From Cyanobium sp. NS01 (lineage in GTDB: Bacteria > Cyanobacteriota > Cyanobacteriia > PCC-6307 > Cyanobiaceae): a stretch of 64,000 nucleotides of DNA. The notes beneath the pieces were generated by a model. That model saw only the letters and a list, made by a program, of their open reading frames with translations, made no database searches and was not told the DNA's origin. Each line of letters starts with the position of its first letter. Positions within the stretch are counted from its first letter, which is position 1. The position numbers and the translations under genes are program-made. Positions 14,082 through 36,791 of this stretch are shown piece by piece. Location: NCBI RefSeq assembly GCF_014280235.1, contig NZ_CP047940.1, forward strand, positions 1,612,001 through 1,676,000, given 5' to 3'.

Positions 14082-14097
14082 GCCTGGTCGGAAATGG

Positions 14098-17275: not shown

Positions 17276-17496
17276 GCCTGCTCTGATGGCTGGTCAGCGC
17301 CACCAGGTCAGCGAGGTGCTGGACTTCTGGTTCGTTCAGAGCCGGCCGCGCCAGCCGTCGACAGCAGCATGTAGTGGCGCGGGGGGAGGCGAAGACCATT
17401 GGGGGAGAGAGGTTGACGGGAGGTGGTCAGGCGCCTTCTCACCGAGACGCCCCAAGGCGGCATCCCGCCAGCTCAGCCTGGGCCCTGCTGATCCGT

Positions 17497-18150: not shown

Positions 18151-18182
18151 CGCCGCAGGTTGCGCCGCAGCTCATGAAGAAG

Positions 18183-20219: not shown

Positions 20220-20237
20220 GGCCGTCCCACTCCCTGA

Positions 20238-21206: not shown

Positions 21207-21209
21207 GGC

Positions 21210-21413: not shown

Positions 21414-21416
21414 TAC

Positions 21417-21434
21417 CAAACTGTATACATGTAG
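21417..21434. promoter_or_regulatory. Palindrome-rich divergent promoter region
   Basis: The short gap between the divergent small protein gene and the hydrolase gene contains TGTATACA and TACATGTA, two overlapping palindromes. They could provide -10 elements and an operator for the ribbon-helix-helix-like product of 21210-21413. Confidence 0.4.
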
Positions 21435-21439
21435 ATGAC

Positions 21440-22360
21440 TTGGTCTGCCCTCCCTTGACCACTGCCGTCCAATCCTCCAGATCCGCTCACCGCCGTTCCT
21501 ACCTCTGGCGTCATGGCGGGCGAACCCTTGAAATCGCCATGACGGACCAGGGGGGCAGCGGCCCGGCCTGGTTGCTGCTGCCGGCGCTGAGCACGATCTC
21601 CAGCCGTCAGGAATGGCAGCCCTTCTGCGATGCCATTCCTGACGGCCCGGGTGAGCCATCCGAGCGACCCCGGCTGATCAGCCTTGACTGGCCAGGGTTC
21701 GGGGAGAGTGATCGGCCTCGGCTGCCGTACGACGCCGAGCTCCTGGCCCTGTTCCTGGCTGATGTCCGACGCGAGGTCTGCCCGACCGACTGTGGTCTGA
21801 TCGCCGCTGGCCATGCCGCCGGCATCGCCCTGCTCGCCGCTGAGCACCATGGCCTGGAGTTTCGCGAGTGGGTGTTGGTGGCCCCCACCTGGCGCGGGCC
21901 GCTGCCGACGATGGCCGGCCGCCGTAGCCGCGCTTTCCCGGCGATCCGTTCCCTGGTGGAGGCGCCGCTGCTCGGGCCCCTGCTCTACCGGCTCAACACC
22001 ACCACAGCCATGCTCGGCTGGATGAGCCGCCGCCACGTGGATGTGGCCGGTCACGGCCTGAGCCCCGAGGGCCTTGCTGCGCGGCAGCGGATCGCCCGCC
22101 AGCTGGGGGCACGTTTCGCCAGCTCTTCCTTCGTGACCGGAGGCCTCGATCCCTACGACGCCCCCCAGGGCTGGCTTGAAGCAGCACAAGACCTGAAGAG
22201 TCCGCTGACGGTGGCGATCGCCGACCAGGCGCCGCCGAAATCCCTTGCAGCGATGCAGGCCCTGGCGGCGGTGGCCGATCACACCCTGCATCTCCCCGGC
22301 CGGCTTGGGGCCCATGAGGAATGCGGGCGGGAGCTGGCCGCCCTGCTCCGCCGATGCTGA
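21440..22360 (+). CDS. Alpha/beta hydrolase-fold protein lacking nucleophile Ser
   Basis: A protein of about 300 residues with an alpha/beta hydrolase fold: GPAWLLLPALSTISSRQEW (oxyanion strand region), LISLDWPGFGESDRP (the usual D-x-x-G-x-G-x-S), LIAAGHAAGIALLAAEH at the nucleophile elbow, and DHTLHLPGRLGAHEE near the C-terminus holding the catalytic His position. The elbow reads G124-H-A126-A-G128 instead of GxSxG, so the expected Ser is Ala and classic hydrolysis is unlikely. The start is uncertain: TTG at 21440 or TTG at 21458 open the frame, with no ATG before residue 34. It is divergent from the CDF operon. Related cyanobacterial proteins exist as I recall, with unclear function. Confidence 0.7.
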   Translation: MVCPPLTTAVQSSRSAHRRSYLWRHGGRTLEIAMTDQGGSGPAWLLLPALSTISSRQEWQPFCDAIPDGPGEPSERPRLISLDWPGFGESDRPRLPYDAELLALFLADVRREVCPTDCGLIAAGHAAGIALLAAEHHGLEFREWVLVAPTWRGPLPTMAGRRSRAFPAIRSLVEAPLLGPLLYRLNTTTAMLGWMSRRHVDVAGHGLSPEGLAARQRIARQLGARFASSSFVTGGLDPYDAPQGWLEAAQDLKSPLTVAIADQAPPKSLAAMQALAAVADHTLHLPGRLGAHEECGRELAALLRRC

Positions 22361-22425
22361 GATACCTGGCCCCCCTGCCCCGTGGTGTGTGTCTGGTGGG
22401 CCTGATCAGCCGGGTGAGAGGCAAG

Positions 22426-23787
22426 TCAGTGGCCAGCTGACAACCGGACCATGAACACGGCTCCCTGTCCTGCTGCAGACCGAACAGTGATCGCACCGCC
22501 ATGGTGACGTGCGATCGCCTGAGCGATGGCTAACCCCAGGCCCGTGCCCCCCTGCTGCCGGGATCGGGCCGCATCAAGCCGGGTAAAGCGATCGAAGATC
22601 CTCGCCTGCTGATCGACGGGGATTCCAGGGCCACTGTCGCTGATGGCCAGCACAACCTCCCGGCCCTGCTTGTCCAGCCTCACGTCGACAACACCGTCTG
22701 CCGGGGTGTAGTGAATGGCATTGCTGAGCAGGTTGATCACGAGCCTGCTGAGCTCCGATTCAACGCCCAGAACCCTGGCGCAAGGGCTGAGGTGCTCCGC
22801 CTTGAGGCTGACCTGAGCAGCAGCGGCCACTTCACTGAACTCCTCCACCACATCCATCACGATCTCGGTGAGATCACAAACCTCCTTGAGGCCTTGAGGC
22901 GAGGATCGCTCCAGGCTCGCGAGCAGCAGCAGATCAGCAATCAGCTGCTGCAGCCTCCGCCCCTGGGCCAGAACCCGATCCAGACTGGTCACCTGCATGT
23001 TGCTGGTGGAAGGATCGGCTGTGCTGCGCTCCGCCTCCACGACGGCCAACAGGTTGGCCAGTGGTGTTCGCAGTTCATGGGCCACATCAGCGCTGAATTG
23101 TTCCTGGCGCCGGTAGGCCTCCAGCAGAGGAGCCATGGCCAGCCCCGCCAACCACCAGCTGGCTACGGCTACCCCCACCATCGCTAGAAGGAAGACCCCA
23201 TGGCCCAGCCACCACAAGCGGTTCGCTTCGGCATCGAGGTGCTCCAGGCTGCTTGAGATCTGCAGGTAGCCCCAGATCAGTTCGCCGGGGCCATGGGAGT
23301 GATGCAGGTGAATCGCATAGGTGCCCCAGCGTTCTCCGGCTCGCTCACCGGTCAATGCCCAGCCCAGCAGCCCAGGTTTCTGCCTCACCGGCAAGGCGCC
23401 AGGGGAGTTGGCGATCAGAACCCCGTGGTGATTGAACACTCGCAGCTTGTAGCGGTCGGGATCGCTTGCACTGATCGCATGCCGATGGATCAGATCCGTC
23501 GGCGGAATGCAGGGCTTGCCTGCCAGGCAGAGGCCCGGCAGCACCGCAGCCAGGGCGCCGGAGGGCCGGGCCTCCGGCGGCAAGGCGGGCTTGAGACTGT
23601 CGTGCAGCGTGCCGGCGAGGCTCTGCAATTCACGCCTGATCGCCGTTTCCTGGGTCTGCAGCAGCAACCGGCCCATGGCAAAGCCGGCTGCATAGAGCAG
23701 TGTGCCCATCACCAGCAACGACAGGCCTGCCAGGCGCAAGCGGGCGCGCCACAGCAATCTTGGCGTTGAGGAACGGTGATGGCTCAC
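22426..23787 (-). CDS. Sensor histidine kinase (RppB/NrsS-like)
   Basis: A 453-residue kinase. The GTG start at 23787 overlaps the stop of the response regulator (GTGA), the usual coupling. It has TM helix 1 (GLSLLVMGTLLYAAGFAMG), a periplasmic sensor of about 150 residues with two Cys (GLCLAGKPCIPP) and His-rich YAIHLHHSHGPGELIW, TM helix 2, then the HisKA H-box DVAHELRTPLANLLA and HATPase motifs (NLLSNAIHYTPADG, DSGPGIP, GGTGLGLAIAQA). The His/Cys in the sensor suggest metal sensing, as in the nickel-sensing NrsS of Synechocystis. It lies divergent from the RND efflux operon, its probable target. Confidence 0.87.
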   Translation of the reverse strand: MSHHRSSTPRLLWRARLRLAGLSLLVMGTLLYAAGFAMGRLLLQTQETAIRRELQSLAGTLHDSLKPALPPEARPSGALAAVLPGLCLAGKPCIPPTDLIHRHAISASDPDRYKLRVFNHHGVLIANSPGALPVRQKPGLLGWALTGERAGERWGTYAIHLHHSHGPGELIWGYLQISSSLEHLDAEANRLWWLGHGVFLLAMVGVAVASWWLAGLAMAPLLEAYRRQEQFSADVAHELRTPLANLLAVVEAERSTADPSTSNMQVTSLDRVLAQGRRLQQLIADLLLLASLERSSPQGLKEVCDLTEIVMDVVEEFSEVAAAAQVSLKAEHLSPCARVLGVESELSRLVINLLSNAIHYTPADGVVDVRLDKQGREVVLAISDSGPGIPVDQQARIFDRFTRLDAARSRQQGGTGLGLAIAQAIARHHGGAITVRSAAGQGAVFMVRLSAGH

Positions 23788-24494
23788 GTCTCCGCGGTCG
23801 CAGGCGGTGCGAGCCGATACCCCTTGCTGGGCACCGTTTCGATCGGCGAGGGAAGGCCGTGGGCCGCCAGCTTGCGCCGCAGCAGCCGCACTTGGGCAGC
23901 CACCACGTTGCTCACCGGGTCCTGATGCAGATCCCACAGTTGATGGCGCAGCCGTGAGCCGGGAATGATCTGGCCTGGATGCTTCAGGAAATAGGCCATC
24001 AACTGCTGCTCCTTGGCCGACAGTTCCACGCGCACCTCACCGGTGGTGGTCGTGACCAGCAGCGTGCCTACATTGGGATCCAATCGATAACTACCGGCTG
24101 CCAACAAGGGCTCCCGGTAGCCGGGGTGGCGCCGCTGAAGGGCCCTGATCCTCGCCAGCAGCTCCTCCATCGCAAAAGGTTTGCTGAGGTAGTCATCAGC
24201 ACCCGCATCGAGGCCCTCCACCCGATCGGCAGTCTCGGCGCGGGCCGTGAGCAACAACACCGGTAGCCCCATGCCAGCGGCCCGGGCGCGCCGGCAAAGG
24301 TCAACACCGCTCAGATCCGGCAGCATCCAATCGAGGATGGCGAGGTCGTAACGGGCAAGTTTACCGCTCAGCAGGCTCCAACCCTCCAGACCGCCGGAGC
24401 AGTAATCCACCACATGGCCCTGGCGTTGCAGCACCGTCTGGACAGCTGCAGCCAGATCCTCTTCGTCTTCCACCAGCAGGATCCGCAGCAACAT
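23784..24494 (-). CDS. OmpR-type response regulator (RppA/NrsR-like)
   Basis: A 236-residue response regulator. The receiver has ILLVEDEEDLAAAV, the phospho-Asp in DLAILDWMLPDLSG, LLLTARAE and GADDYLSKPFAMEEL. The winged-helix effector spans about 130-230 (ELSAKEQQLMAYFLKHPGQI, NVVAAQVRLLRRKL, IETVPSKGYRLAPP). It overlaps the kinase gene by four bases, so it is transcribed first in the pair. It is divergent from the adaptor/RND operon with a gap of about 100 bases, and probably activates it on metal stress, as NrsR does for the nickel operon in Synechocystis. The metal specificity cannot be read from the sequence. Confidence 0.87.
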   Translation of the reverse strand: MLLRILLVEDEEDLAAAVQTVLQRQGHVVDYCSGGLEGWSLLSGKLARYDLAILDWMLPDLSGVDLCRRARAAGMGLPVLLLTARAETADRVEGLDAGADDYLSKPFAMEELLARIRALQRRHPGYREPLLAAGSYRLDPNVGTLLVTTTTGEVRVELSAKEQQLMAYFLKHPGQIIPGSRLRHQLWDLHQDPVSNVVAAQVRLLRRKLAAHGLPSPIETVPSKGYRLAPPATAET

Positions 24495-24597
24495 CAGGGG
24501 TGGGCTCCGGATGGCAGATGCTAGTGAGTGCCGGCGATTTCACCTGTTTTTCATCCCGGTTGCTCCATCCTCCGCCCATCCACCGTTCCCATGGGCC

Positions 24598-25176
24598 TTG
24601 GTCAACCGATTCCTGCAGCTGGCCGCTCGAGCCAGCCTCTCCACCGCTGCCCTGCTCGCCATCGCCACGGCATCACCGCTAGCCAGGGCCCACGTGGGCC
24701 ACGGTGATGAGTTCCAGCAGCAGGGGGATGTGCGCCAGGTGAAGCGCAATGCCGACAGCGATGGGCTGCTGGGTGTGGCCACGGCCAAGCCCGAACAAGG
24801 ACCTGATGGCCTCACCGTGCCCGCCACTGCACTGGTGGATGCCGATGGCAAGTCCCTGCTGTTCGTGCAGACCGAGAAGACCTACGACCCAGTCTTCGTG
24901 CAGACCGGAGCCAACCAGGGAGACCGCGTGGTCGTGACGGAGGGAATCGATAACACCGATGACGTGGTGCTGTCGGGTGTGCTCTCGCTCTACGCCGAAT
25001 CGAAGAAGACCCAGCAGGTGGAGGCTCCTGCGGCTGATGCCGGTGCTGTTGCCAAGGCCGAGGACGGTTCCAACTCCAGCGGCAACCTGCCGTTGATCGC
25101 TGGCACAGCCGGTGTTGCCGCGGTGGTGGCCGCAGGGGCGGTGCTGATCAACCGCCGCGGCAAGCAGGGCGAATGA
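24598..25176 (+). CDS. Small adaptor-like periplasmic protein of RND operon
   Basis: A protein of about 192 residues. A signal peptide (ASLSTAALLAIATASPLARA) is followed by HVGHGDEFQQQGDVRQ, then a domain matching the C-terminal part of RND membrane-fusion proteins (LTVPATALVDADGKSLLFVQ, VFVQTGANQGDRVVVTEGID). At the end there is a Gly/Ala-rich TM helix (LPLIAGTAGVAAVVAAGAVL). It lacks the hairpin and lipoyl parts, so it is a mini-adaptor, separate from the full one at 28301. The frame opens at 24511, but the TTG at 24598 gives a clean signal peptide and leaves room for a promoter. Its stop overlaps the RND pump start (ATGA). Confidence 0.75.
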   Translation: MVNRFLQLAARASLSTAALLAIATASPLARAHVGHGDEFQQQGDVRQVKRNADSDGLLGVATAKPEQGPDGLTVPATALVDADGKSLLFVQTEKTYDPVFVQTGANQGDRVVVTEGIDNTDDVVLSGVLSLYAESKKTQQVEAPAADAGAVAKAEDGSNSSGNLPLIAGTAGVAAVVAAGAVLINRRGKQGE

Positions 25177-28100
25177 TCGAAAAGCTGCTCAACACCACGC
25201 TGCGGTTCTCGATCGCCCGTCGTTGGCTGATCGTGGCCGCTGCGGTGGTCATCAGTCTCTGGGGCCTGCTGGCCGTGAGCCAGATGCCGCTGGATGTTTT
25301 TCCGCCCTTTGCACCGCCGCAGGTGGATGTACAGACCAGCGCTGACGGCCTCTCGCCTGAGGAGGTGGAAGCCCGGATCACCCTGCCGATTGAATCGGCC
25401 GTGAACGGCATCCCCGGCGTGGAGACGGTGCGCTCCTCCTCCAAGGCGGGCCTGTCGATGGTGCAGGTGGTGTTCCACCAGAACGCCGACATCTACCGCG
25501 CTCGCCAGTCGGTGGCGGAGCGGTTGCAGCAGGTGAGCACCCAGCTTCCCGCCAATGCCGCCGCACCGGAGTTGTCGCCGCTTGTGTCACCGCTCGGCAC
25601 GATCCTGCAGGTGGCCTTCACGGTGAAAGGCGATGGCGCCACATCCTTGATGGATCTGCAGCAGCTGTTGCTGCGCTCCTATCGCCAGGCCATCCTGGCG
25701 GTCCCTGGTGTGGCCCAGGTGACGATCTACGGGGGTGATGAGCAGCAGTTCCAGGTGCTGATCGACCCCCAGGAACTGCAGGTGCAGAACGTCTCGCTCC
25801 AAGCAGTAATGGAGGGGGTCTCCAATGCCATGGCCACCAGCCCCGGAGGCTTCCTGATTGCCGGCGGCCAGGAGCGGCTGATCCGCCCGATGGGACAAAT
25901 CGAGCAAGTCAGCGACCTGGCTGATGCAGCGGTGCGCAACGAGCAGGGGCAACCGGTGCTGCTTTCCACCCTGGCGGAGGTCAAACGCGACGCGGCTCTC
26001 AAACGGGGTGACGCCAGCTTCAACGGCAAGCCCGCCGCCGTGCTGATGGTGACCAAGCAGCCCGACGTGGACACACCCACCGTGACCCGCGCGGTGGAGC
26101 GACGCCTGGCCGAACTGAACCGAACCCTGCCGGCGGATGTGCAGACCCACGTCACCTTTCGGCAGAGCAACTTCATTGACAGCGCCATCCGCAATGTGAG
26201 CGAGTCGCTGCTGCAGGGGGTGGTGATCGTCTCGGTGGTGATCGTGCTGTTCCTGATGAACTGGCGCGCCGCCATAATCAGCCTCAGCGCCATTCCGCTT
26301 TCGCTGCTGATCGGCCTGATGCTGATGAAAGCGCTTGGGCTGGGGATCAACACCATGACCCTGGGCGGGCTGGTGGTGGCGATCGGCTCGGTGGTCGACG
26401 ACTCGATCGTCGACATGGAGAACTGCTACCGGGGCCTGTGCCGCAACCAGGCGAGCAGCACGCCCAAATCACCGCTGCAAGTGGTGTTTGACACCTCGCT
26501 GGAGGTGCGCCAGCCCGTGCTGTTCTCCACCGTGATCATTGCGGTGGTGTTCGCGCCGATCTTCTCGCTCACCGGCGTGGAAGGACGGATCTTTGCGCCC
26601 ATGGGCCTGGCTTACCTGCTCTGCATCGGCAGCTCCACCCTGGTAGCAGTGACCCTGTCACCTGCCCTCTGCGCCATCCTGCTGGCGCCGGTTCAGCTGC
26701 CGGAGGAGAACACCTGGATCGCCAACCAGGCCCAGCGCCTCTATCGCCCTGTGCTGGATCTGGCCCTGGCCTCCCCGCAGCGGGTGCTGGCCATGGCCCT
26801 TGCTCTGGTGATCGCCACCACCCTCATCCTGCCGGCACTGGGACGGGTGTTTCTGCCCGAGTTCCGTGAAAAGTCGCTGGTGAATTCGATGGTGCTTTAC
26901 CCCGGGGTGTCGCTGGAGATGACCAATCGGGCCGGCCTGGCCCTGACCCGTTCGCTGCAGAACAACCCTCTGTTCGAGTGGGTGCAGGTGCGCACCGGCC
27001 GCGCGCCTGGTGATGCCGATGGTGCGGGTGTGAACCTTGCCCATGTGGATGTGGAACTCAGCGATCAGGCGATGGCCAACCGCCCAGCCGCCATTGCTGA
27101 ACTGCGGCAGGCGTTTCAGAAGCTGCCGGGCGTGGCTTCCAACATCGGCGGCTTCATCTCCCACCGCATGGATGAGGTGCTCTCCGGGGTCCGCAGTGCC
27201 ATCGCGATCAAGATCTACGGCACCGATCTGGGCGAGCTGCGCCGCATCGGCGAGGCCGTGGAGACAGCGATCAAGCCGATCACCGGAGTGGTGGATCTGC
27301 AGCTGGAGCCCCAGCTGCCCATCCCCCAGTTGCAGATCCACTACGACCGCCCCCTGGCCTCGGCCCTTGGCCTCAGCATTGAAAAGCTGTCGCAGGCCGT
27401 GGAGATTGCCTTCAACGGCAAGGTGGTGGGCCACGTGGTGGAAGCCGGCGTGCGCAGCGATGTGCTGGTGCAGCTGCAGCCGGACGCGCGCGCAAACCTG
27501 GAGGCCATTCGCTCGGTGCCGGTGGCCTTCTCCAATGGCATGACGGTGCCGCTGGGCAGCGTCGCCTGGATCGACGAAGGCCTCGGCTCCAACGTCGTCA
27601 ACCGGGAGGACGTCTCCCGCATGATCGTGGTCTCCACCAACGTCAGCGGCCGGCCCCTCGGCACTGTCGTCAAAGACATCCAGCGCACCATCGCCCGTGA
27701 GGTGCCACTGCCTCAGGGCTACACGATCCGCTACGGCGGTCAGTTCGAATCAGAAGAACGGGCAACCGCGTCTCTGGTCGTCTACAGCGCTGTTGCCGCA
27801 GTGGTGATCAGTGTGCTGATGGTGATTTCGGTGAAATCAGTGCCCGCCACAGTGGCGATCATGCTCAACCTGCCCCTGGCCCTGATCGGAGGTGTGGTGG
27901 CGGTGTTGCTCACGGGAGGAGTGCTATCGATCGCCTCCTTGATCGGCTTCATCACGCTGTTTGGCATCGCCGTGCGCAATGGGCTGTTGCTGGTGGACAA
28001 CTACAACCGCCGCCATGGCGCAGGGCAACCCCTGGGCGAGGTGATCCGTGAGGGAAGCCTGGAGCGCCTCAACGCCATCCTGATGACAGCCCTCTCCTCG

Positions 28101-28304
28101 GCCCTTGGCGCCTTGCCGTTGGCGCTGGCGTTCGGGGCCGGCAACGAAATCCTGCAGCCCCTGGCCGTTGTGGTGCTGGGCGGCCTGATCACCTCCACGG
28201 CGCTGACGCTGCTGGTGCTGCCCGCGCTGTACGTGCGCTTTGGCCGTTGGCTGTTGCCTCCTGTCGCAGCTCCGTCGCCCTCCCTCGTTGCGTCCCATCC
28301 ATGA
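25173..28304 (+). CDS. RND heavy-metal efflux pump (CzcA/NrsA type)
   Basis: A 1043-residue HME-RND transporter with twelve TM helices and two periplasmic loops. Features: N-terminal LRFSIARRWLIVAAAVVISL, the PLDVFPPFAPPQVDVQT motif after TM1, GVAQVTIYGGDEQQFQV in the porter domain, VVDDSIVDMEN in TM4 (the Asp pair carrying protons) and a TM10-12 block ending VVVLGGLITSTALTLLVLPA. The TM4 Asp-rich motif and family likeness point to divalent cation export (Ni, Co, Zn or Cd) across the envelope. It is coupled to the mini-adaptor upstream (4-base overlap) and the full adaptor downstream (4-base overlap). Confidence 0.9.
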   Translation: MIEKLLNTTLRFSIARRWLIVAAAVVISLWGLLAVSQMPLDVFPPFAPPQVDVQTSADGLSPEEVEARITLPIESAVNGIPGVETVRSSSKAGLSMVQVVFHQNADIYRARQSVAERLQQVSTQLPANAAAPELSPLVSPLGTILQVAFTVKGDGATSLMDLQQLLLRSYRQAILAVPGVAQVTIYGGDEQQFQVLIDPQELQVQNVSLQAVMEGVSNAMATSPGGFLIAGGQERLIRPMGQIEQVSDLADAAVRNEQGQPVLLSTLAEVKRDAALKRGDASFNGKPAAVLMVTKQPDVDTPTVTRAVERRLAELNRTLPADVQTHVTFRQSNFIDSAIRNVSESLLQGVVIVSVVIVLFLMNWRAAIISLSAIPLSLLIGLMLMKALGLGINTMTLGGLVVAIGSVVDDSIVDMENCYRGLCRNQASSTPKSPLQVVFDTSLEVRQPVLFSTVIIAVVFAPIFSLTGVEGRIFAPMGLAYLLCIGSSTLVAVTLSPALCAILLAPVQLPEENTWIANQAQRLYRPVLDLALASPQRVLAMALALVIATTLILPALGRVFLPEFREKSLVNSMVLYPGVSLEMTNRAGLALTRSLQNNPLFEWVQVRTGRAPGDADGAGVNLAHVDVELSDQAMANRPAAIAELRQAFQKLPGVASNIGGFISHRMDEVLSGVRSAIAIKIYGTDLGELRRIGEAVETAIKPITGVVDLQLEPQLPIPQLQIHYDRPLASALGLSIEKLSQAVEIAFNGKVVGHVVEAGVRSDVLVQLQPDARANLEAIRSVPVAFSNGMTVPLGSVAWIDEGLGSNVVNREDVSRMIVVSTNVSGRPLGTVVKDIQRTIAREVPLPQGYTIRYGGQFESEERATASLVVYSAVAAVVISVLMVISVKSVPATVAIMLNLPLALIGGVVAVLLTGGVLSIASLIGFITLFGIAVRNGLLLVDNYNRRHGAGQPLGEVIREGSLERLNAILMTALSSALGALPLALAFGAGNEILQPLAVVVLGGLITSTALTLLVLPALYVRFGRWLLPPVAAPSPSLVASHP

Positions 28305-29470
28305 ACCCGAGCCTGCATCGCATCAAGGATCGTCTGCGTCAGCCCCAGGTGCTGCTTCCTTTGGCCCTCGGAGGATCCCTGTTGCTGGGCATCGCGCTGG
28401 GGCGCCTCCAGCCGGGCCCAGCCACCGTGCCCGTGGCTAAAGAATCAGCAAGCACCACGCGCAGCGGCTCCCTTGCCTTCAGTGAAGAGCAATTGCGGCG
28501 CTCGGGGCTCAGCACCATTCGCCCAGATCTGAGCACGGGCACCGCACGTCCGATTTCCGGGTTTGTGGACGCAGCCGTCGGAGCGCGCTCCAGTGCAAGC
28601 ATGCAGGTGGCCGGCCGCATCGTTCGCCTGCTGGTGGCACCAGGCGCTGCCGTCCAGGCCGGTGAGCCGATCGCTGAAGTTCAGAGCCCCGACGCGGCGG
28701 TGGTGCGAGCCGATGCGGATACAGCCCAGGCCACGGCGCAGTCCCTTGGTTATCAGTATCGCCTGGCCCTACCGATGGCCCAGCAGGGGGCGCTCTCGGC
28801 CCAGGAATTGGAGAGCCGCCGCATCGCCAGCGTCACCGCAGCCAATGCCGCCAGGGCGGCGGCAGCCAAGGCCATGGCGATGGGACAGCCCGATGCCATG
28901 GGACGCCTGCTGATCCGCAGCCCGATCCGTGGCCAGATCGCCGCCGTGAAGACCTCCCCCGGGTCAGTGCTCCAGACCGGCGATGAGGTGGCCCAGATCA
29001 GCGATGCTCGCGGCAGCGAATTGCGCTTCCTGGTGTCGCCGGTGCTGGCCGCCAACCTGGAGATCGGCCAGCGACTGCGGGTGAGAGCAGGATCGCGGGA
29101 TCTGCGGGCTCGCGTCTTGGCGGTGGTCCCCGACAGCGGCAGTGGAAATCGTGTCACCGTGGTGCGCGCCGAGACGGTGGATGCGCCCATGCCCCCTGCC
29201 GGCACGGCTGTGACGGCCTTTGTCCAGGTGCCGGCCTCCGCGCAACGGTTCACGGTGCCGGCGGATGCTGTTCAGTTGGTCAATGGCATGGCGGTGGTGT
29301 TCCGCTATCAACGGGGCGTAGTGGAGCCAGTTCCGGTGGTGGTGGGCCAGCAGTCCGCTGAGCGCGTTGAAATCCTGCAAGGCGTGCGCGGCAGCGAGAT
29401 CCTGCTTAGTGGGAACACGGCAAAACTGCGTGATGCCCTGGCCGGGGAACGGCGACTAAGCGAGAACTGA
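28301..29470 (+). CDS. RND periplasmic adaptor (membrane-fusion) protein
   Basis: A 389-residue HlyD/CzcB-type adaptor. A TM anchor near the N-terminus (VLLPLALGGSLLLGIALG) is followed by a lipoyl half (MQVAGRIVRLLVAPGAAVQAG), a helical hairpin (about 140-190), the second lipoyl half (LIRSPIRGQIAAVKTSPGSV) and beta-barrel and MP domains (FTVPADAVQLVNGMAVVFRY, VVGQQSAERVEILQGVRGSE). It connects the RND pump to an outer-membrane channel; no TolC-like gene is in the window. The ATG at 28301 overlaps the RND stop (ATGA) and is the natural start. This gene order (pump, then adaptor) is the reverse of many czc/nrs operons. Confidence 0.88.
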   Translation: MNPSLHRIKDRLRQPQVLLPLALGGSLLLGIALGRLQPGPATVPVAKESASTTRSGSLAFSEEQLRRSGLSTIRPDLSTGTARPISGFVDAAVGARSSASMQVAGRIVRLLVAPGAAVQAGEPIAEVQSPDAAVVRADADTAQATAQSLGYQYRLALPMAQQGALSAQELESRRIASVTAANAARAAAAKAMAMGQPDAMGRLLIRSPIRGQIAAVKTSPGSVLQTGDEVAQISDARGSELRFLVSPVLAANLEIGQRLRVRAGSRDLRARVLAVVPDSGSGNRVTVVRAETVDAPMPPAGTAVTAFVQVPASAQRFTVPADAVQLVNGMAVVFRYQRGVVEPVPVVVGQQSAERVEILQGVRGSEILLSGNTAKLRDALAGERRLSEN

Positions 29471-29491
29471 TCGAGCGTCCGAAAGCAGTCG

Positions 29492-30571
29492 ATGGCCTGG
29501 TCTTCTCTCCGACGTGGACAGCTGGCTGGCCTGGCGGCCGCCGTCTTATTCGGCATCAGCGCCCCGCTGATCAGCACCGTGACTGGTTCTGGCTCGGCTC
29601 TGAGTATCGCCGGGCTGCTCTATGGGGGCGCCACCCTGGCCCTACTGACGGTGCGGCTGTTCCGAGACACCGAGGCCGAAACCTCCGTAGGCAGGCAGGA
29701 CTGGCCAGCGCTCGCGGCCCTCACCCTGCTCGGCGGCGTGGTGGGACCGGTAGCCCTGGTGATGGGCCTGGCGCGCCTGCCCGCGGCCTCCAGCTCGCTG
29801 CTGCTCAACCTGGAGGCGGTGTTCACCCTGGCGATCGCCGTGCTGCTGGGGCGAGAGCACTTAGGCCGGCGGGGACTGCTTTCCGCTGGGCTCACGATCG
29901 CCGCGGCGGTGCTGCTCTCCGAGGGCTCCCTCAGCGGAGCCAATGCAGGGGGCAGTGCCCTGATCGCTTTGGCCACGTTGGCCTGGGGTATCGATAACAA
30001 CCTCAGCCAGAGCCTCAGCCTGCGCAATCCGATCCAGATCGCCACCTGCAAGGCCGCGGGCGCGTCGCTGCCGATGCTGGCGCTGGCGTTGCTGCTCGGG
30101 CACCCCTTCCCGGCGCTGCCAGTCATGTTGGCATTGCTGGCGATCGGGGCCCTGGGCTACGGCATTTCGATCTGGCTGGATCTGCTGGCCCTGCGCGATC
30201 TCGGTGCTGCCCGCGAGGCGGTGCTGTTCTCCACCGCGCCGTTCGTGGGTGCCCTGTTCTCCCTGGTCATCCTGCGCGAGGCCTTCACGCCCCAGTTGCT
30301 GGTGGCCGCTGGCCTGATGGCCGCGGGTGTTCTGCTGCTGCTGCTGGAGCAGCACAGCCACTGGCATCGCCATGACGTGCTCCGTCATGCCCATCGCCAC
30401 CGGCACGATCCACTCGGCGGCGATCCCCATCACGAGCACCGCCATCAACCCGAGGAGCTCGAGGGTGTCGCTGCCGATCAGCCCTTCTGGCACGCCCATG
30501 AGCATTGCCACGGGGAGCTGGAGCACGCACACCCACACGTCAGCGACACCCATCACCGCCATCGCCACTGA
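29492..30571 (+). CDS. EamA/DMT permease with His-rich C-terminal tail
   Basis: A 359-residue drug/metabolite (EamA) transporter with about ten TM helices in two repeats (LAAAVLFGISAPLISTVTGS, SSLLLNLEAVFTLAIAVLLG, ALGYGISIWLDLLALRDLGA). After residue 285 a cytoplasmic tail of about 75 residues is crowded with His (HSHWHRHDVLRHAHRHRHD, DPHHEHRHQ, HAHEHCHGELEHAHPH, HHRHRH). This recalls the His-rich tails of nickel/cobalt exporters such as NrsD or RcnA, but on a different permease family. It is the last gene of the RND operon, 21 bases after the adaptor, so it probably exports the same metal (nickel or cobalt inferred). Confidence 0.85.
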   Translation: MAWSSLRRGQLAGLAAAVLFGISAPLISTVTGSGSALSIAGLLYGGATLALLTVRLFRDTEAETSVGRQDWPALAALTLLGGVVGPVALVMGLARLPAASSSLLLNLEAVFTLAIAVLLGREHLGRRGLLSAGLTIAAAVLLSEGSLSGANAGGSALIALATLAWGIDNNLSQSLSLRNPIQIATCKAAGASLPMLALALLLGHPFPALPVMLALLAIGALGYGISIWLDLLALRDLGAAREAVLFSTAPFVGALFSLVILREAFTPQLLVAAGLMAAGVLLLLLEQHSHWHRHDVLRHAHRHRHDPLGGDPHHEHRHQPEELEGVAADQPFWHAHEHCHGELEHAHPHVSDTHHRHRH

Positions 30572-30620
30572 GCAGGCATCGGCTCTCGCCTGCTGGGGCA
30601 TGCGACAGCAGGAGGTCGAA

Positions 30621-30906
30621 TCAGCCCTGCGGCAGCGGCGAAAGTTCCCAATGCTGCGCACAGACCTGCCAGCCCTGCTGCCGCTTCTGGGCCCAGAGCC
30701 GGATCGCCTGCTCGCCTGTGAGCTCCCTGCGCAGCTTGGAATAGTGCTGGCTCTCCGCTGGGTATGAGCTCCCCGAGGGTCACCTCCAGGCTCTGGCTCC
30801 AGCGGTCGTAACGCCGTGGCATGAAGTGCAGCACCTGGCGGCCGTCGCTCAGCCAGCCTTCCCGGGGTGAGAGCGGCGGCCGGCCGGGCCTGTCCGTGAA
30901 GTTCAT
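30621..30906 (-). pseudogene. Frameshifted small conserved protein
   Basis: Two frames join into one protein of about 95 residues. The first, from the ATG at 30906, reads MNFTDRPGRPPLSPREGWLS, DGRQVLHFMPRRYDRW and SLEVTLGELIPSG. The second reads ESQHYSKLRRELTGEQAIRL, WAQKRQQGWQVCAQHWELSP, ending at 30621. The change of frame lies near 30755. The product resembles a small cyanobacterial protein of unknown function. It sits seven bases after the Cys-rich protein gene upstream, so they were probably co-transcribed. A one-base loss would give a truncated, altered C-terminus. Confidence 0.6.
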
Positions 30907-30913
30907 ATGCCGC

Positions 30914-31198
30914 TCAGGCCACCTCCGGCGCCCAGCCCTTCTGCCGCACCAAGTCGTCGGTCCAGCCCTGGCAGCGGCTGGTGAGGTGCTCACCATGCGC
31001 GATCAGCCCTTGGTGCAGCTGGCAGGTGAGCACCGGGATGCAGTTCACCCCGGCGTGGTGGCAGAACCAGTGGCAGGTCATGCAGACCTTGCGGCTGCGG
31101 GTCTTCTGCAGGGTGCCCTCATCGAGGTAGGGCCACTCCTCGATCGGGGTTTCGAGCCGGGCATTCAGTGCTGCTGGTCGGGGGAGAGGGGCACCCAT
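30914..31198 (-). CDS. Cys/His-rich hypothetical protein
   Basis: A 94-residue protein with a compact Cys/His core: VCMTCHWFCHHAGVNCIPVL, TCQLHQGLIAHGEHL and SRCQGWTDDLVRQKGW. At least six Cys and six His could bind one or two zinc ions, as in small zinc-ribbon or HNH-like modules, although no HNH signature is complete. It is at the left edge of the phage-derived block and just upstream of the frameshifted small gene. Function unknown. Confidence 0.65.
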   Translation of the reverse strand: MGAPLPRPAALNARLETPIEEWPYLDEGTLQKTRSRKVCMTCHWFCHHAGVNCIPVLTCQLHQGLIAHGEHLTSRCQGWTDDLVRQKGWAPEVA

Positions 31199-31268
31199 GA
31201 CTCATGGCTAATGCGTACGCATGTACTAGCACGGTTGCCCCTGTCGTGTCCTGTCCTGTCCGATCAGC

Positions 31269-32195
31269 TCAGCCGTGGTGGAGAGCGGCTGTCTCTAGCT
31301 GTGACTGGTGCTGAACCAGAAACGTCTCAATCCAGTCGTGATGCCTGCGGTGGCAGATCCGATCCGCAATCGAGGGGGCATCAGCCGGCACCTGGAACCG
31401 CTTGCGGAAGGCCTTGCTGAACCCCTCCAGCACCGGCGCTGGCAGGGCCCGGATGGTGGCGTGCAGCTGACGAATGGTGGCAGGATCGAGAGGCATCAGG
31501 CCGGGATCCGGTTGTTGTGGTCGGGCTGTTGCATCAGCTGGAGCAGCTTGAACTGTTGCAGCTGCGGGTGGCGCAGGTTTCGATGTCGCCTCGCTCTGGG
31601 CCTCCTGAGTGAATGGGGCTCGGTGCTGAGCTGGAGCCGATGCATCGGGCACCACTCGCAACGCTGAGGGCCTGCCCGCTGGCTGGTTGGCGGGACGAGC
31701 ACCTCCCCCACCAGCAGCCCCGGTCACCTCCCGCTGCTGCTTGTCGTAAAGCGCCAGACCGAAGGGATTGCCGAAGGTCATCAGCGCCCGCTTCATGGCG
31801 TCGGTTTCGGCCTCTTTGAGGGCGGATTCATGAGCCTGGCCCAGGTCGGTGTCGATGCCGTGGCCGGCCCCGCAGCCCTCGCGGATCAACGGGGCACCGG
31901 TGCCCTCGCCGACGGTGATGCGCACGCGGGCGGTGTAAGTGACCCCCCAGCCGGGGCGCTGCTCCCGGCTCGTGCCTCTGGCACCGATGGTGCGCTCGCT
32001 CTGGTTGACGCAGCGGAGGGCGACGGTTTGGCGCTGCCAGCCGTCAAAGCCAAAGATCCGGTTGGCTTCCGCGATCACCTGCCAGCCCTCCAGATAGCTG
32101 ACGGAGCTGCGGCCCTGCTCGCGCTGGCGCACCTTGGCGCGATCCAGTGGAGCGGAGAGGGCAGTGATCTGCTCGGCAGAGAAGGTGCAGGTCAT
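31269..32195 (-). CDS. Rad52/Rad22-family single-strand annealing protein
   Basis: A 308-residue protein. Residues about 10-155 match the Rad52/Rad22 domain: LDRAKVRQREQGRSSVSYLE, GWQVIAEANRIFGFDGW, VTYTARVRITV, and EGCGAGHGIDTDLGQAHESA followed by LKEAETDAMKRALMTFGNPFG, which is the most conserved Rad52 block. The rest is Ala/Pro/Gln-rich and disordered up to a helical C-terminus. These proteins anneal single-stranded DNA, and phage members serve recombination. It lies in a minus-strand row with Gp157 and SLOG genes, which supports a phage or integrative-element origin. Confidence 0.85.
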   Translation of the reverse strand: MTCTFSAEQITALSAPLDRAKVRQREQGRSSVSYLEGWQVIAEANRIFGFDGWQRQTVALRCVNQSERTIGARGTSREQRPGWGVTYTARVRITVGEGTGAPLIREGCGAGHGIDTDLGQAHESALKEAETDAMKRALMTFGNPFGLALYDKQQREVTGAAGGGGARPANQPAGRPSALRVVPDASAPAQHRAPFTQEAQSEATSKPAPPAAATVQAAPADATARPQQPDPGLMPLDPATIRQLHATIRALPAPVLEGFSKAFRKRFQVPADAPSIADRICHRRHHDWIETFLVQHQSQLETAALHHG

Positions 32196-32256
32196 GGCGG
32201 CGATGGGATGGGGTGGCGGAGATGAGGCGTGATGGCGGGGACGGGGAGAGATCAGC

Positions 32257-32469
32257 TCAGCTGGCGTTGGCTTCCGTGTTGAGCGGCTCGATCAACAACC
32301 AGCAGGGCGGCTCGCTGCAGAAGATGTGTTGGGGGGAGGGCCGGCGGCTGCCCTTGCGGGTGATCGGCACCACCCAGCTGCACAGCCGGGTCGACCAGAT
32401 GTGGCCCCTGGGCCGGGAGCTGGTGGGGCGGTTGGTGCCGGTGGCGCTGGCGTAGCTGGAGAGATCCAT
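32257..32469 (-). CDS. Small hypothetical protein of the phage-like module
   Basis: A 70-residue basic protein lying between the Gp157 and Rad52 genes on the same strand: SYASATGTNRPTSSRPRGHI, STRLCSWVVPITRKGSRRPS, HIFCSEPPCWLLIEPLN. Position, size and direction fit a small early phage gene. No family recognised. A competing longer frame over the same bases has a composition typical of a shadow frame. Confidence 0.5.
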   Translation of the reverse strand: MDLSSYASATGTNRPTSSRPRGHIWSTRLCSWVVPITRKGSRRPSPQHIFCSEPPCWLLIEPLNTEANAS

Positions 32470-32526
32470 GGCTCCGGTGATGGGTGATCGGTGGTGTGTC
32501 GCTCTGCTTGAGACGGCCTCTGGCCG

Positions 32527-33147
32527 TCAGTGGATGCGCCAGCTGCGGCGGGAGAGGAGGTGGGCGCCTTCGATGTGGCGGCCTGCTTTGAGGGCCTCTT
32601 TGATGGCGGCCTTGTCCGGCTTGCTGGTGGTGGTGACGGCGAGCCACTGGGGATCGAGGGCTTCCTCGTCGTCGATCTCGACCGCCTGAGACTTGCGGGA
32701 GGTGAGCTCGTGGTTGGGAAAGCTGAACCGGGTGGCCTTGGGCTGCAGGCGGGTCAGCACCAGCACGAGGGAGTGCTCCAGGGCATCGGCGCGGCTGTTG
32801 TCGCCGGCGGCCAGGGCGGTGAGCCGCTTGGCCTGCTGCTGGCGGTAGGCGGCCTGGCCGCGCAGGTGCTCGATCACCCAGCAAGTGGCATCGGCCTTGG
32901 CAGCGATGGCGGCCTTGTTGCCTTCATCGGCCAGCAGGGCGGTCTCGAGTTCGCCGAGGATCTGCTGGCGTTCGTCTGGTTCATCGGTTTCCAGCCGCTC
33001 GGCCAGCTGGGCAATGGCGGTGGTGAGCTCCTGGGACTCGATGCCTAGCTGCCAGAGGGAACCGGAACGCTGCAGGGTGCAGGACGGCCCGGCGGCCTGG
33101 GGGAGAGATGGGGAGAGCGGAGCGGCTGGGGCAGTGAGCGCGGCCAT
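32527..33147 (-). CDS. Siphovirus Gp157-like protein
   Basis: A 206-residue protein resembling the siphovirus Gp157 family. It has an N-terminal helical region with acidic heptads (LAERLETDEPDERQQILGEL), a central long helix (AAYRQQQAKRLTALAAGDNS), VLVLTRLQPKATRFSFPNHE (the family's turn from helix to the RLKxYL-like region) and a C-terminal EIDDEEALDPQWLAVTTTSK with KAAIKEALKAGRHIEGAHL. In phages Gp157 accompanies Rad52/RecT-type recombination genes. Exact function unknown, often cited as linked to phage resistance. It sits two genes upstream of the Rad52-like gene. Confidence 0.75.
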   Translation of the reverse strand: MAALTAPAAPLSPSLPQAAGPSCTLQRSGSLWQLGIESQELTTAIAQLAERLETDEPDERQQILGELETALLADEGNKAAIAAKADATCWVIEHLRGQAAYRQQQAKRLTALAAGDNSRADALEHSLVLVLTRLQPKATRFSFPNHELTSRKSQAVEIDDEEALDPQWLAVTTTSKPDKAAIKEALKAGRHIEGAHLLSRRSWRIH

Positions 33148-33198
33148 GGGGTGATGAATGAAGATGGAACACGAGAAGAACGGGGCGGCGATTGCCGC

Positions 33199-33720
33199 TC
33201 AAGCGGCGAGGGGCTCCGGCGAGAACGGCGGCGGCACCTCCATCACCACCACCGGCACCGGCGAACGGGCGGAGCAGCGGCGGGCCTGCTGAACCAGCGA
33301 GGCCGTGCCAGGCCCACCGGGGAAGGCGATCACCAGCACCGAGACGCTGAAGGCTGGGGAGGTGTGGGCCTGGGCTTCCACCAGGGCCTGCTCAAGCAGA
33401 AGGCGATTGCGGATGGGGCCGGCACTGCGGCCATAGCGGCGCCAATCAGCGACGAGGGACTGAACCCGCCAGCCGAGCTGATGGGCCGCACGACCGATGG
33501 CACGATCAGCGCCACGGGCCCCGCCATGAAGCAGCAGATGGACAGGCCGGCCACCGCTGCGCTGGAGCAGGGCGGAGGCGATGCGCTCCTGAGGCCAGAA
33601 GAGATCACGGCCACCAGCGGCGACGATGACGATCGAGCGATGGGCCAACGCCGGCGGCGGCAGGAGGCCAAGGGAAGACAATGCAGCGGCCTGGGCCACT
33701 GCAGCAGAGGACAAGCTCAT
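33199..33720 (-). CDS. SLOG (DUF2493/YspA-like) nucleotide-binding protein
   Basis: A 173-residue protein with the SLOG/DUF2493 fold. The marks are IVIVAAGGRDLFWPQERIAS, LLLHGGARGADRAIGRAAHQ (the GGARGAD nucleotide-binding loop), VADWRRYGRSAGPIRNRLLL and VIAFPGGPGTASLVQQARR (GGPGT). Such proteins bind nucleotide-derived ligands and are frequent in phages and mobile elements. The first 25 residues are Ala/Leu-rich and may be extra. It is the first gene of the minus-strand run Gp157, small protein, Rad52. Its promoter is predicted at 33806-33827. Confidence 0.8.
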   Translation of the reverse strand: MSLSSAAVAQAAALSSLGLLPPPALAHRSIVIVAAGGRDLFWPQERIASALLQRSGGRPVHLLLHGGARGADRAIGRAAHQLGWRVQSLVADWRRYGRSAGPIRNRLLLEQALVEAQAHTSPAFSVSVLVIAFPGGPGTASLVQQARRCSARSPVPVVVMEVPPPFSPEPLAA

Positions 33721-34157
33721 GGGCTACAGAGCAAACGAACGGGGCAAGTTGTCCGAGGATTTCGTTGCCGCAGGCGATGGGCTCGTGGCCTTTGGCGCAG
33801 CTCTTATTCTACCAGTACAAATGCACTGAGAAGCGGGCAGAGCGGCTGCAGGGCAATGGATCTACGCAAAGCAAAGGCATGCGCTGATGGATCGGAAAGC
33901 TGAAAAGCAGACCCGCCAGATTCAGCACTGAATGCCCAGCTGGCCGCGCAGCCGCGTGAGGAAACCTGGGGCTTCACCCCAGCCCTATCGATGCGGGTGA
34001 GGGCCCGGCCACCGCAGCCGCGGGAGAGCTGCCACGCCTGCCCACCCCCAAACCGGCCCCGGAGCGGAGGGCGGCGGCGGCTGGCCGATGCACGCCGCGG
34101 CGCAGCCGTGGCACGCTGAAGGACGGCCGTCGCCGACCGGAGCCCTGCGGTGCCTGC
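33721..34157. other. Intergenic stretch of the mobile module
   Basis: About 440 bases between the SLOG gene and the Fic gene. Apart from the promoter/LexA-like site at 33806-33827 and GC-rich sequence near 34000-34130, I see no gene. Confidence 0.4.
33806..33827 (-). promoter_or_regulatory. Extended -10 promoter overlapped by LexA-like box
   Basis: On the minus strand TGG precedes TAGAAT (33811-33806), an extended -10 element. Just upstream, 33814-33827 reads AGTACAAATGCACT, matching the cyanobacterial LexA consensus RGTAC-N3-DGTWCB at 13 of 14 positions. This would put the SLOG-Gp157-Rad52 genes under SOS control. Confidence 0.45.
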
Positions 34158-34751
34158 TCAGCTCTCTCGGGCAAAGGCCAGCAGTGCAGTGAGATCACCG
34201 CGGTCAGCTCGCTGAAGAGCGCTGATGTACTGCTGCCTCAGAGCTGAGGCATTCACCAGGGAACTGCTGCTGCCCCAGGAGAAGCGAGGTGCACCCAGCT
34301 GCTCGATCAACGCGTCAGCGATCAGGCGGGCGTGGCGACCGTTGCCGTTGGGGAAGGGGTGGATGGAGACCAGCCGGTGATGGAAACGGATGGCGATCAG
34401 ATCCACCACATCCACCCGGTGCTCCACCTGGAAGGCGATGTCGGCCAGCAGGGCCGGGACTTGCATCCGGATCTGCCGCCAGTCGGCGCCGATGCTCTTG
34501 TCGCTGCTCCGGTACTGACCGGCCCAACGCCAGCTTTGGCCAAACATCTCGCGGTGCAGGCGTCGCAGCCAGCTTTCTTCCAGCGGCCGGGGCCGTCGCT
34601 GGCGGGACAGCCAGAGCAGAGCAGCTTCGATGTTCTGCTGCTCCCATTCGTTCAGCTGGCTGCGATTCACCAGATGGGAGGGCAGCAGCCCCTCCAGCTC
34701 CTCCCCATCGAGAGGCGTCGCCCCGGCCGGTAGGTCCTCGTTCAACCCCAT
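34158..34751 (-). CDS. Mobile mystery protein B (Fic/Doc domain)
   Basis: A 197-residue Fic-domain protein. The catalytic motif is HPFPNGNGRHARLIADALIE (HPFxxGNGR), preceded by the usual HREMFGQSWRWAGQYRSSDK and IAFQVEHRVDVVDLIAIRFH. Fic proteins attach AMP or other groups to targets. The N-terminal half (LEGLLPSHLVNRSQLNEWEQ) is as in mobile mystery protein B, regularly found after the XRE protein A on integrative elements. Its ATG at 34751 lies inside the end of the upstream gene (10-base overlap), so the pair is coupled like a toxin-antitoxin system. Confidence 0.87.
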   Translation of the reverse strand: MGLNEDLPAGATPLDGEELEGLLPSHLVNRSQLNEWEQQNIEAALLWLSRQRRPRPLEESWLRRLHREMFGQSWRWAGQYRSSDKSIGADWRQIRMQVPALLADIAFQVEHRVDVVDLIAIRFHHRLVSIHPFPNGNGRHARLIADALIEQLGAPRFSWGSSSSLVNASALRQQYISALQRADRGDLTALLAFARES

Positions 34752-35203
34752 AGCCGGGTGCCGCTGGTGCGGAGGATCTCCTGAGCCATGGCTTCGAGCC
34801 GCTGCTGTGCTCCCTCGGATGGCGAATCGATGGGCTGCGCTTCCAGCGCCATGGTGCGGCCGGCGCGTTGCTGCCACTGCTGCGCCAGCCTCAGGGCCTG
34901 CTGCCTTCTCATCTCCCGCAGCGGCTGTCTTGGCACCAACGTGTACTGCAGCTCGCAGTCGAGCGCCTCGGCCACCCGCCGCAGGGTGCCGAGCGTGATG
35001 GCATCGGTCGCCTCGGCCTGTTCCAGCTTTCGCAACCCGGAAGCGGTGATTTCTAAGCGAGCCGCAAGTGCAGCGGAGGTCATGCCCAGGGCCTCACGGA
35101 TGGACCGCAGCCAGCCCGCCGGCGGCCGTTGCGCCAGTGAATGGCTGGCGGCGTCCTGAAGCACCGCATCCATCTGAGCAAGCCGCAGCTCCTTGGGATT
35201 CAT
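34742..35203 (-). CDS. Mobile mystery protein A (XRE-type regulator)
   Basis: A 153-residue protein with a helix-turn-helix: WLRSIREALGMTSAALAARL then EITASGLRKLEQAEATDAI, followed by LRRVAEALDCELQYTLVPRQ. The length and C-terminal helix (QQALRLAQQWQQRAGRTMAL) fit mobile mystery protein A. It would repress the pair and, by analogy, neutralise the Fic partner. The start at 35203 (MNPKELRL) is preferred over an upstream alternative. The stop overlaps the Fic gene start. Confidence 0.85.
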   Translation of the reverse strand: MNPKELRLAQMDAVLQDAASHSLAQRPPAGWLRSIREALGMTSAALAARLEITASGLRKLEQAEATDAITLGTLRRVAEALDCELQYTLVPRQPLREMRRQQALRLAQQWQQRAGRTMALEAQPIDSPSEGAQQRLEAMAQEILRTSGTRLWG

Positions 35204-35373
35204 GGTGAATGCGAGCAATCAGTCCCGCAGGGGAACCACAAAGACAACCTATCACTCCTGTCATGAGCACACCAGGGGGAGTGATCCGTTGCTTCCTGGC
35301 ACGGGGAAGGGAGCCATCGCTCGCGCCACGGGCAGTGTGTCCCTCTGGGCGTCGTGGATCGCAGTCGGGACGT

Positions 35374-36585
35374 TCATCGACCAAGGCGTGCCGCGGCCCG
35401 CTCGAAGGCGTCATCTACAACGTCGTCACCACACCACTTGCTGTAGGCCGCCAGGTGCGTTTCGACGCTATGGCCCATGGCGGCAGCGGCCACCTTCGGC
35501 GGCAGTTCGCAGATCAGGTGGGCGCGGTGGGCGTAGCCATGCCGGGCGGAATAGAGGACCAGCTTCTCCCCTTCTGCCTCGTACTGCTGCCGCAGATCCT
35601 GCCAGTGCCGGCGCCGGCGCATGTACAGACCCAGATCCTCGGCGCCGTAGCCCGGCCGCATCGGCGGTAGTGGCTGGGCTTTGAACTGTTCCAACAGCTC
35701 CCAGGCCTCAGCCCAGTCATCGCAGGGCAGCAGCCGCAGCGGTCTCGGCTTTGTCGCTCCTCGGCTGGTGTTCTTGCGGTAGTTGCACCACAGGCGGCCG
35801 CCGCGCAGCTGAAGGTGTTGCAGCTCCTCTGGTCTGAGGCCATAAGCCGCCAGCAACTGGAATGCGAGGCGCCAACGGGCATCCGGAATGGCCTCCACCA
35901 ACTCCAGGATGTGCTTCACCTCGATCGGGGTGGTGATCGACCGACCCTCCCGCTTGCGGCCCACAAAGGGGTCGAGATCCAGAGGTGGGGCCCATTCCAC
36001 AGCCAGAGCGCCGTTATCGACCCCCCATCGCAGCAGCGCCGCGGTCTGCTGCACCTGCATCTGCCGGCCACGGGAGCCAGGCTGATCAGACCAGCGAGCC
36101 GTCACTGCTTCCAGCAGTTCCCGGGGATTGGTTGGTGCTTTCTTGCTGGCGAGGATGGCCAGCAGTTCTGCCATTCGGCGCTGATAAACGGCGGCCCAGG
36201 TCCGGGGCTTGATGGCTCCGCTGCTCAGCTTTCGGGCTTTGAATCGCTCAACCAGCTCAGGCCAATCGATAGGGCCAGCATCCGGATCAGCTGTTGGCTC
36301 ACCGATGGCCAGTGCGGCTGCAATGGCCCGATCGAGTGAAAGTCCCTCGCTATGGGCAGCGTGGATCGCCAGAACCGTCTCTCGGATCGCATCGGCCTGG
36401 TCATGGGCCCATTCGATGGGCAACAGAACCTGATGACGACCGCCGGCGCCATCGACCGTGAGGCGCGTACGCCCTCGCAGATCGGAAACGCGCCAGCCGC
36501 TGCTCGTGCCTCGCTGGGTGAGGGAGAGGCGCAGGCCGGAGCGGAGCACAGAAGCCCAGGCATCTGAGGCTCTAGAAGCTCCCAT
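35374..36585 (-). CDS. Tyrosine-type integrase
   Basis: A 403-residue site-specific recombinase. The N-terminal part holds an arm/core-binding region (about 105-200, WPELVERFKARKLSSGAIKP). The catalytic domain shows R251 in AYGLRPEELQHL, H349/R354 in SARHGYAHRAHL, H372 in MGHSVETHL and the nucleophile Y381 in AAYSKW. It integrates and excises a mobile element at a tRNA gene. A 3' half of tRNA-Pro lies 165 bases upstream of its start, so this end of the element is at hand. Three 12-bp direct repeats overlap its start codon. It ends near the mobile mystery gene pair. Confidence 0.9.
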   Translation of the reverse strand: MGASRASDAWASVLRSGLRLSLTQRGTSSGWRVSDLRGRTRLTVDGAGGRHQVLLPIEWAHDQADAIRETVLAIHAAHSEGLSLDRAIAAALAIGEPTADPDAGPIDWPELVERFKARKLSSGAIKPRTWAAVYQRRMAELLAILASKKAPTNPRELLEAVTARWSDQPGSRGRQMQVQQTAALLRWGVDNGALAVEWAPPLDLDPFVGRKREGRSITTPIEVKHILELVEAIPDARWRLAFQLLAAYGLRPEELQHLQLRGGRLWCNYRKNTSRGATKPRPLRLLPCDDWAEAWELLEQFKAQPLPPMRPGYGAEDLGLYMRRRRHWQDLRQQYEAEGEKLVLYSARHGYAHRAHLICELPPKVAAAAMGHSVETHLAAYSKWCGDDVVDDAFERAAARLGR

Positions 36586-36619
36586 GTGAGCAAATATGTG
36601 AGCAAATATGTGAGCAAAT
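36584..36619. repeat. Three perfect 12-bp direct repeats at integrase start
   Basis: ATGTGAGCAAAT occurs three times head to tail (36584-36595, 36596-36607, 36608-36619). The first copy overlaps the integrase start codon at 36585-36583. They could be binding sites of the integrase arm domain, of an excisionase or of a repressor. Confidence 0.85.
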
Positions 36620-36749
36620 CGACCCCCTCAGCTTGGCACGGGCTGCCGTGGGCTGCCATCCCCTTGCACGGCAAACAGCAGTGACAGCAGTGCTTTTCGG
36701 CCCAGACTCCAGTCCTGGCAATCGATCCCTCAAACCCGTAAAAGAGAGT

Positions 36750-36791
36750 TTTGGGAGCACTAGGTCGCAGGTTCGAATCCTGTCGCCCCGA
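36750..36791 (+). other. tRNA-Pro(TGG) 3' fragment, probable att site
   Basis: The sequence from TTTGGGA (anticodon loop with TGG) through GCACT (3' anticodon stem) and GGTCGCAGGTTCGAATCCTG to TCGCCCCGA is the 3' half of a tRNA-Pro: the T-stem pairs GCAGG/CCTGT, and the acceptor strand CGCCCCG and discriminator A are present. No 5' half precedes it (the bases before do not pair with GCACT, and no CGGGGCG is found about 35 bases upstream). Integration into the tRNA 3' end typically leaves this. With the integrase alongside, it marks an element boundary. Confidence 0.8.

Follow-up and report, generated by a model that had tools for sequence, protein, structure and literature searches.

A half tRNA-Pro(TGG) gene marks the very probable right end of a 75.4-kb capsid-encoding integrative element in Cyanobium sp. 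NS01

Introduction

Capsid-forming phage-inducible chromosomal islands (cfPICI) carry an integrase, regulators, replication genes, and their own terminase, portal, scaffold, and capsid, with no recognizable tail. Tail-borrowing by capsid-forming satellites is presented as a way of life in at least one published account (PMC11389934), and the tycheposons of Prochlorococcus appear among the proposed phage satellites named there and in a second source (PMC10872708).

The element described here, found in Cyanobium sp. NS01, is like cfPICI in having an integrase, regulators, replication genes, terminase, portal, scaffold, and capsid; profile searches recognized no tail in it. Unlike cfPICI, it is much larger, is cyanobacterial, and carries metal and restriction cargo. 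It can also be likened, by description rather than by hallmark genes, to tycheposons, with which it shares tRNA insertion, a tyrosine recombinase in picocyanobacteria, and cargo; distant homologs of its integrase adjoin half copies of tRNA-Pro in members of the same family that have small genomes. With lambda-type attachment systems it shares a core with flanking arm-type sites (putative here) and an excisionase-like partner, and the three-strand domain modeled at the N terminus of its integrase resembles an arm-binding domain. In contrast to those systems, the box II histidine is replaced by an invariant tyrosine in this integrase family, and the arm motifs vary between elements at the same tRNA.

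Results

The DNA analyzed is a 64,000-nucleotide window, bases 1612001-1676000 of the 2,748,087-base single-contig genome. An earlier note on this window had identified a 42-base piece upstream of an integrase gene as the 3′ half of tRNA-Pro(TGG), had taken it to mark one att site of an element reaching toward lower coordinates, and had proposed a genome search for a second copy of the tRNA-Pro repeat. Each of these points was borne out. The 42 bases at 36750-36791, TTTGGGAGCACTAGGTCGCAGGTTCGAATCCTGTCGCCCCGA, are separated from the start codon of the integrase by 164 bp and match, base for base, positions 33-74 of a complete tRNA-Pro(TGG) elsewhere in the genome (1573337-1573411), which lies on the same strand as the orphan half and 38.6 kb beyond the left edge of the window. 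The starts of the two 42-bp repeats are 75,381 bp apart and their unbroken identity is exactly 42 bp, beyond which there is just a short, partly matching stretch after the tRNA end. When the genome was searched with the 21-base middle part of the repeat, exact matches were returned in only two places, and no third exact copy of the repeat was found in the genome. No chance match to a 21-base part of the 42-base piece arose in 100 shuffles of the window, and no complete tRNA was found within the window. The 3′ part of the tRNA is therefore directly repeated at both ends of the element, with the full tRNA at one of them (the left), and 36750-36791 very probably forms the right attachment site of an integrative element of 75.4 kb that entered tRNA-Pro(TGG) at the anticodon loop and has the two repeats as its boundaries (Table 1).

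Table 1 Features of the right part of the element, in window coordinates.
Feature	Position	Strand	Basis or remark
Right 36.8 kb of the predicted 75.4-kb element	1..36791		Left 38.6 kb outside the window (genome 1573369-1612000)
Metal cargo	5465..29470		NCBIfam, Pfam histidine kinase; within the repeat-bounded interval, cargo in siblings too
Rad52-family annealing protein, backbone	31269..32195	-	PF04098
Gp157 / Mu Gam-like protein, backbone	32527..33147	-	PF05565, phrog_253
SLOG-family (YspA-like) protein, backbone	33199..33720	-	PF10686; borders on the integrase module in sibling elements
Fic protein, mobile mystery protein B	34158..34751	-	TIGR02613, PF02661
HTH protein, mobile mystery protein A	34742..35218	-	TIGR02612
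Tyrosine integrase, lambda-Int-like, box II His to Tyr	35374..36585	-	PHROG integrase, alignment, structure model and Foldseek
Three GTGAGCAAAT units in tandem, period 12; putative arm-type sites for the integrase	36586..36619	+	Adjoin the integrase start codon
Predicted attR core, 42-bp tRNA-Pro(TGG) 3′ half; right element boundary	36750..36791	+	Identical to intact-tRNA positions 33-74

The earlier note had allowed the element to include either the whole metal-resistance region or only the block at 30.6-36.8 kb. The position of the left copy places the whole region inside, with the element occupying window positions 1-36791 and a further 38.6 kb to the left, where the intact tRNA-Pro lies together with phage-like genes for head and packaging. 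Genes were called by a codon-usage script, and the main ones were searched against families. Just inside the tRNA at the left end is a gene for a 78-aa HTH_17 protein with weak matches to excisionase families; an excisionase-like protein is found near the att end here and in two siblings. It is followed by genes for an anti-repressor, a primase/helicase-like protein, an exonuclease, and a RusA-like resolvase, then by the head and packaging genes, with a type I restriction system between the phage-like head genes and the metal region. The transporters of the metal cargo comprise two heavy-metal P-type ATPases, an Nramp transporter, a CDF transporter, and a CusA/CzcA RND pump with its adaptor, which are accompanied by a multicopper-oxidase-like protein and a two-component system. 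After the metal region come Rad52, the Gam/Gp157 protein, the SLOG protein, the two mobile mystery proteins (B, a Fic protein, then A, an HTH protein), and finally the integrase. Directly outside the right end lies an ArdC-type antirestriction gene.

Much of the region from close to the left end up to the SLOG gene aligns with other-genus elements (G035, G096, and G134), mostly at 80-90% DNA identity, with gene order largely kept and the cargo relocated. In G035 and G096, the RND pump block is found between the g40 gene and the capsid gene, not near the Rad52 end. Because gene order is shared with these elements while the cargo has moved, the whole metal region is cargo of the element. The movement of cargo between siblings also means that the 75 kb may have grown stepwise. 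Separately, g91 (window 30914-31198) encodes a 94-aa cysteine-containing protein that had no family match in profile searches; 2-3 copies, whole or partial, occur in siblings next to cargo blocks.

The integrase gene faces inward from the right end, and its frame is open and intact-looking. The protein has no match in Pfam or NCBIfam and matches an integrase in PHROGs (E 1.5e-14). In the family alignment R251, K271, R348, and H372 are invariant, Y381 is near-invariant, and an invariant tyrosine, Y345, occupies the usual position of the box II histidine, so that the gene at this end encodes the catalytic R-K-R-H-Y residues, with Tyr for His in box II. An AlphaFold model of the protein (pLDDT 87) shows, close to the N terminus, three strands and a helix. 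Its best PDB matches in Foldseek are lambda integrase and Tn1549 integrase, and the predicted fold is lambda-Int-like. A scan of the collection with this single integrase protein yielded nine contigs from other genomes, their sources including Cyanobium sp. Cruz-8D1, Synechococcus sp. 8F6, and lake MAGs, each with an integrase 83-99% identical to this one and, at the same spot, half a tRNA-Pro of 40-44 bp (one copy degenerate) and paired TTTGCTCAC repeats. More distant members of the integrase family adjoin tRNA-Arg(TCT), tRNA-Gly(TCC), or tRNA-Gly(CCC). One related integrase beside tRNA-Arg (L010:1483-2688) has Asp in place of the catalytic Tyr and is probably inactive, and a 4.6-kb contig with a 99% identical integrase (L145, JAIXWY010000006.1) is filed as an Opitutaceae MAG and is probably mis-binned.

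The earlier note had also described the sequence next to the integrase as iterons. The three tandem GTGAGCAAAT repeats are real, but they are better read as arm-type integrase sites than as iterons in the replication sense. Element ends were compared by exact motif counts; a test for any shared 10-mer was non-discriminating, with 372 of 2000 random pairs sharing one. GTGAGCAAAT occurs five times in 114 kb, compared with 0.06 expected on one strand, and all of the copies are at the two element ends and on the same strand, three beside the integrase start codon and two no farther than about 210 bp from the tRNA end. In three sibling elements both ends could be read; each of these has its own motif at both ends, and each motif is different: CCGCGCAAAA in the G004 element (tRNA-Pro, two draft contigs), GTGAGAAGGT in the 48.8-kb tRNA-Gly element of G134, and TTCTCTTGCA in the 70.5-kb tRNA-Pro element of G134. 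In the stretches read from these siblings, every same-strand copy of the motif sits at the two ends, and the tRNA-Pro element of G134 has one extra reverse-strand copy near the tRNA end. Of the integrases of the family that were inspected, most have such tandem repeats no more than about 60 bp away from their start codon.

Because the same motif is found at both ends and each sibling has its own, the repeats at 36586-36619 best fit putative arm-type integrase binding sites. As they touch the start codon, integrase binding there might also repress the integrase gene. Tandem 12-bp units next to a gene would suit replication iterons too, but this reading is very improbable and was rejected because the repeats are present at both ends; moreover, each sibling's own motif recurs at both its ends and beside its integrase, and the adjoining integrase is no replication initiator. 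As a side observation, the element here has three 12-bp repeats where about 99% identical integrases have two beside them, likely owing to a recent 12-bp duplication.

The phage-like genes in the left part encode a terminase large subunit, a sigma factor, a portal, a scaffold, and a major capsid protein, and the terminase, portal, and capsid frames are open. The order of terminase, sigma factor, portal, two unknowns, scaffold, and capsid with the genes that follow is kept in IMG/VR contigs, and more loosely in a more distant element of G134. For the capsid, close siblings give dN/dS values of 0.013-0.035, and G002 gives 0.145, which indicates that the capsid is under strong selection. The dS values of the element are mostly 0.3-0.5. 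With guaA as the reference, element genes have a lower dS in the comparisons with G134 and G035, a dS close to that of guaA for G096, and one that is not lower for G002; recent transfer is thus supported by dS only in part. PHROGs recognized neither a tail tube nor a tape measure among the element genes tested and the ORFs of the 48.8-kb sibling, and the tape-measure family PF10145 had no match in the genome, so that the absence of tail genes is one seen in profile searches. One sibling encodes a collagen-like, fiber-type protein, and g31, a LysM protein, has a weak baseplate-hub match and a structure model (pLDDT 50) that is uninformative. Head genes with no recognized tail would fit a capsid-forming, tail-borrowing satellite. 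Places with a major-capsid gene number 4 and 7 in G134 and G178, and several such elements seem to coexist in one genome.

In the genus, the genes 5′ of tRNA-Pro(TGG) form a conserved block and the DNA 3′ of it is variable, and many relatives carry other elements at this tRNA. Many of the tRNA 3′-end copies in relatives precede another pair of tandem repeats with yet another motif, which suggests that elements are stacked at one tRNA. No such pair is found in the flank beyond 36791 in the host genome; this flank weakly resembles that of the intact tRNA-Pro in G002 and may be the one that the chromosome had originally. In G035, G134c, and G002, elements are situated close to tRNA-Ser(CGA), and no integrase of this element's family was found near that tRNA in these three.

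Other arrangements were seen at tRNA-Pro. In G005, a tRNA-Pro 5′ half (positions 1-41) is found at L081:9484-9524 and, on a different contig, a full tRNA beside a related integrase at L082:19504-19577, an opposite geometry, as if the element there supplied the 5′ half. G006 and G134 have a similar integrase located 5′ of tRNA-Pro. In the small-genome relative G031 (L094:2668-4580), a full tRNA-Pro is followed by two more copies of the 3′ half, with spacings of about 0.6 and 1.3 kb, an arrangement reminiscent of stacked mini-elements.

Discussion

The att site and the element boundary are well supported and ordinary in principle, but they open onto a less ordinary element family: tRNA targeting is commonplace, and what sets this element apart is a backbone with head genes and no recognized tail, joined to heavy cargo and to repeats specific to its ends. 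It is best modeled as an element that integrates into a tRNA gene and encodes a capsid, perhaps a phage satellite that borrows tails, and we infer its mobility and particle formation. On insertion, the element's 3′ half would replace the gene's own, leaving the tRNA whole. The integrase would bind the arm repeats and recombine the tRNA core, and, with the HTH_17 protein at the left end as the likely excisionase, the two 42-bp copies would recombine to release a circle. Less certainly, the DNA of the element would be packaged by its own terminase into its own capsid. Because no tail genes were recognized, the tail of a helper phage may be needed, as in capsid-forming phage satellites. This satellite part of the model, with packaging in its own capsid and a tail possibly from a helper, is tentative, and we place it somewhat short of an even chance.

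The same genes could instead belong to a complete but poorly recognized temperate phage with a short or divergent tail, which would carry the cargo and have no necessity for a helper. Terminase, portal, scaffold, capsid, sigma factors, anti-repressor, and a Gam-like protein are all present, and the fiber-like protein of one sibling and the weak baseplate-hub match of g31 point in the same direction. The major capsid protein is homologous (42%) to that of the tailed cyanophage PSS2 and the terminase (37%) to that of cyanophage S-CBS2, although both of these, in contrast to the element, are isolated tailed phages. Against a prophage stand the lack of any recognized tail tube, tape measure, or PF10145 match in the searches described above and the size of the element, as 75 kb with about 25 kb of metal cargo would be unusual. 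We consider a prophage a serious possibility, though one that we are inclined to doubt.

It is unlikely that the locus is a decayed, immobile composite island, formed from an old prophage remnant to which later insertions were added between two copies of the tRNA. The site has IS elements and toxin-antitoxin genes, cargo positions differ among siblings, and integrases are broken in some relatives, as such an origin would predict. However, the integrase, terminase, portal, and capsid frames are open here, the selection on the capsid is strong and purifying, and the 42-bp repeats and arm repeats match at both ends. An integrative conjugative or mobilizable element is highly improbable. Several features seen here are common in ICEs, namely tRNA insertion, an integrase, a large cargo of metal genes, and an ArdC-type gene, which in this case lies immediately beyond the right end. 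However, neither of the two families searched, relaxase PF03432 and coupling protein PF10412, has a match in the genome, and phage packaging genes are present instead.

Returning to the tRNA-integrating, capsid-encoding model, its broadest form is a family of large, capsid-encoding, tail-borrowing satellites spread among freshwater picocyanobacteria, each with a private arm-repeat "address" that pairs its own ends only; this we offer as conceivable, with more doubt than belief. If true, a single tRNA gene could hold a stack of many elements, none of which would excise another, and they would bring metal-resistance and restriction genes with them. Lysogeny in unicellular cyanobacteria has been described as apparently rare (PMC6157547), and this apparent rarity is to be set against a recurrent phage-head-encoding family whose members occupy tRNA genes and bear metal resistance and restriction systems as cargo. 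The repeats that match between the two ends provide a simple means to pair element ends in picocyanobacterial genomes, and a testable idea for how tandem elements at one tRNA remain separate.
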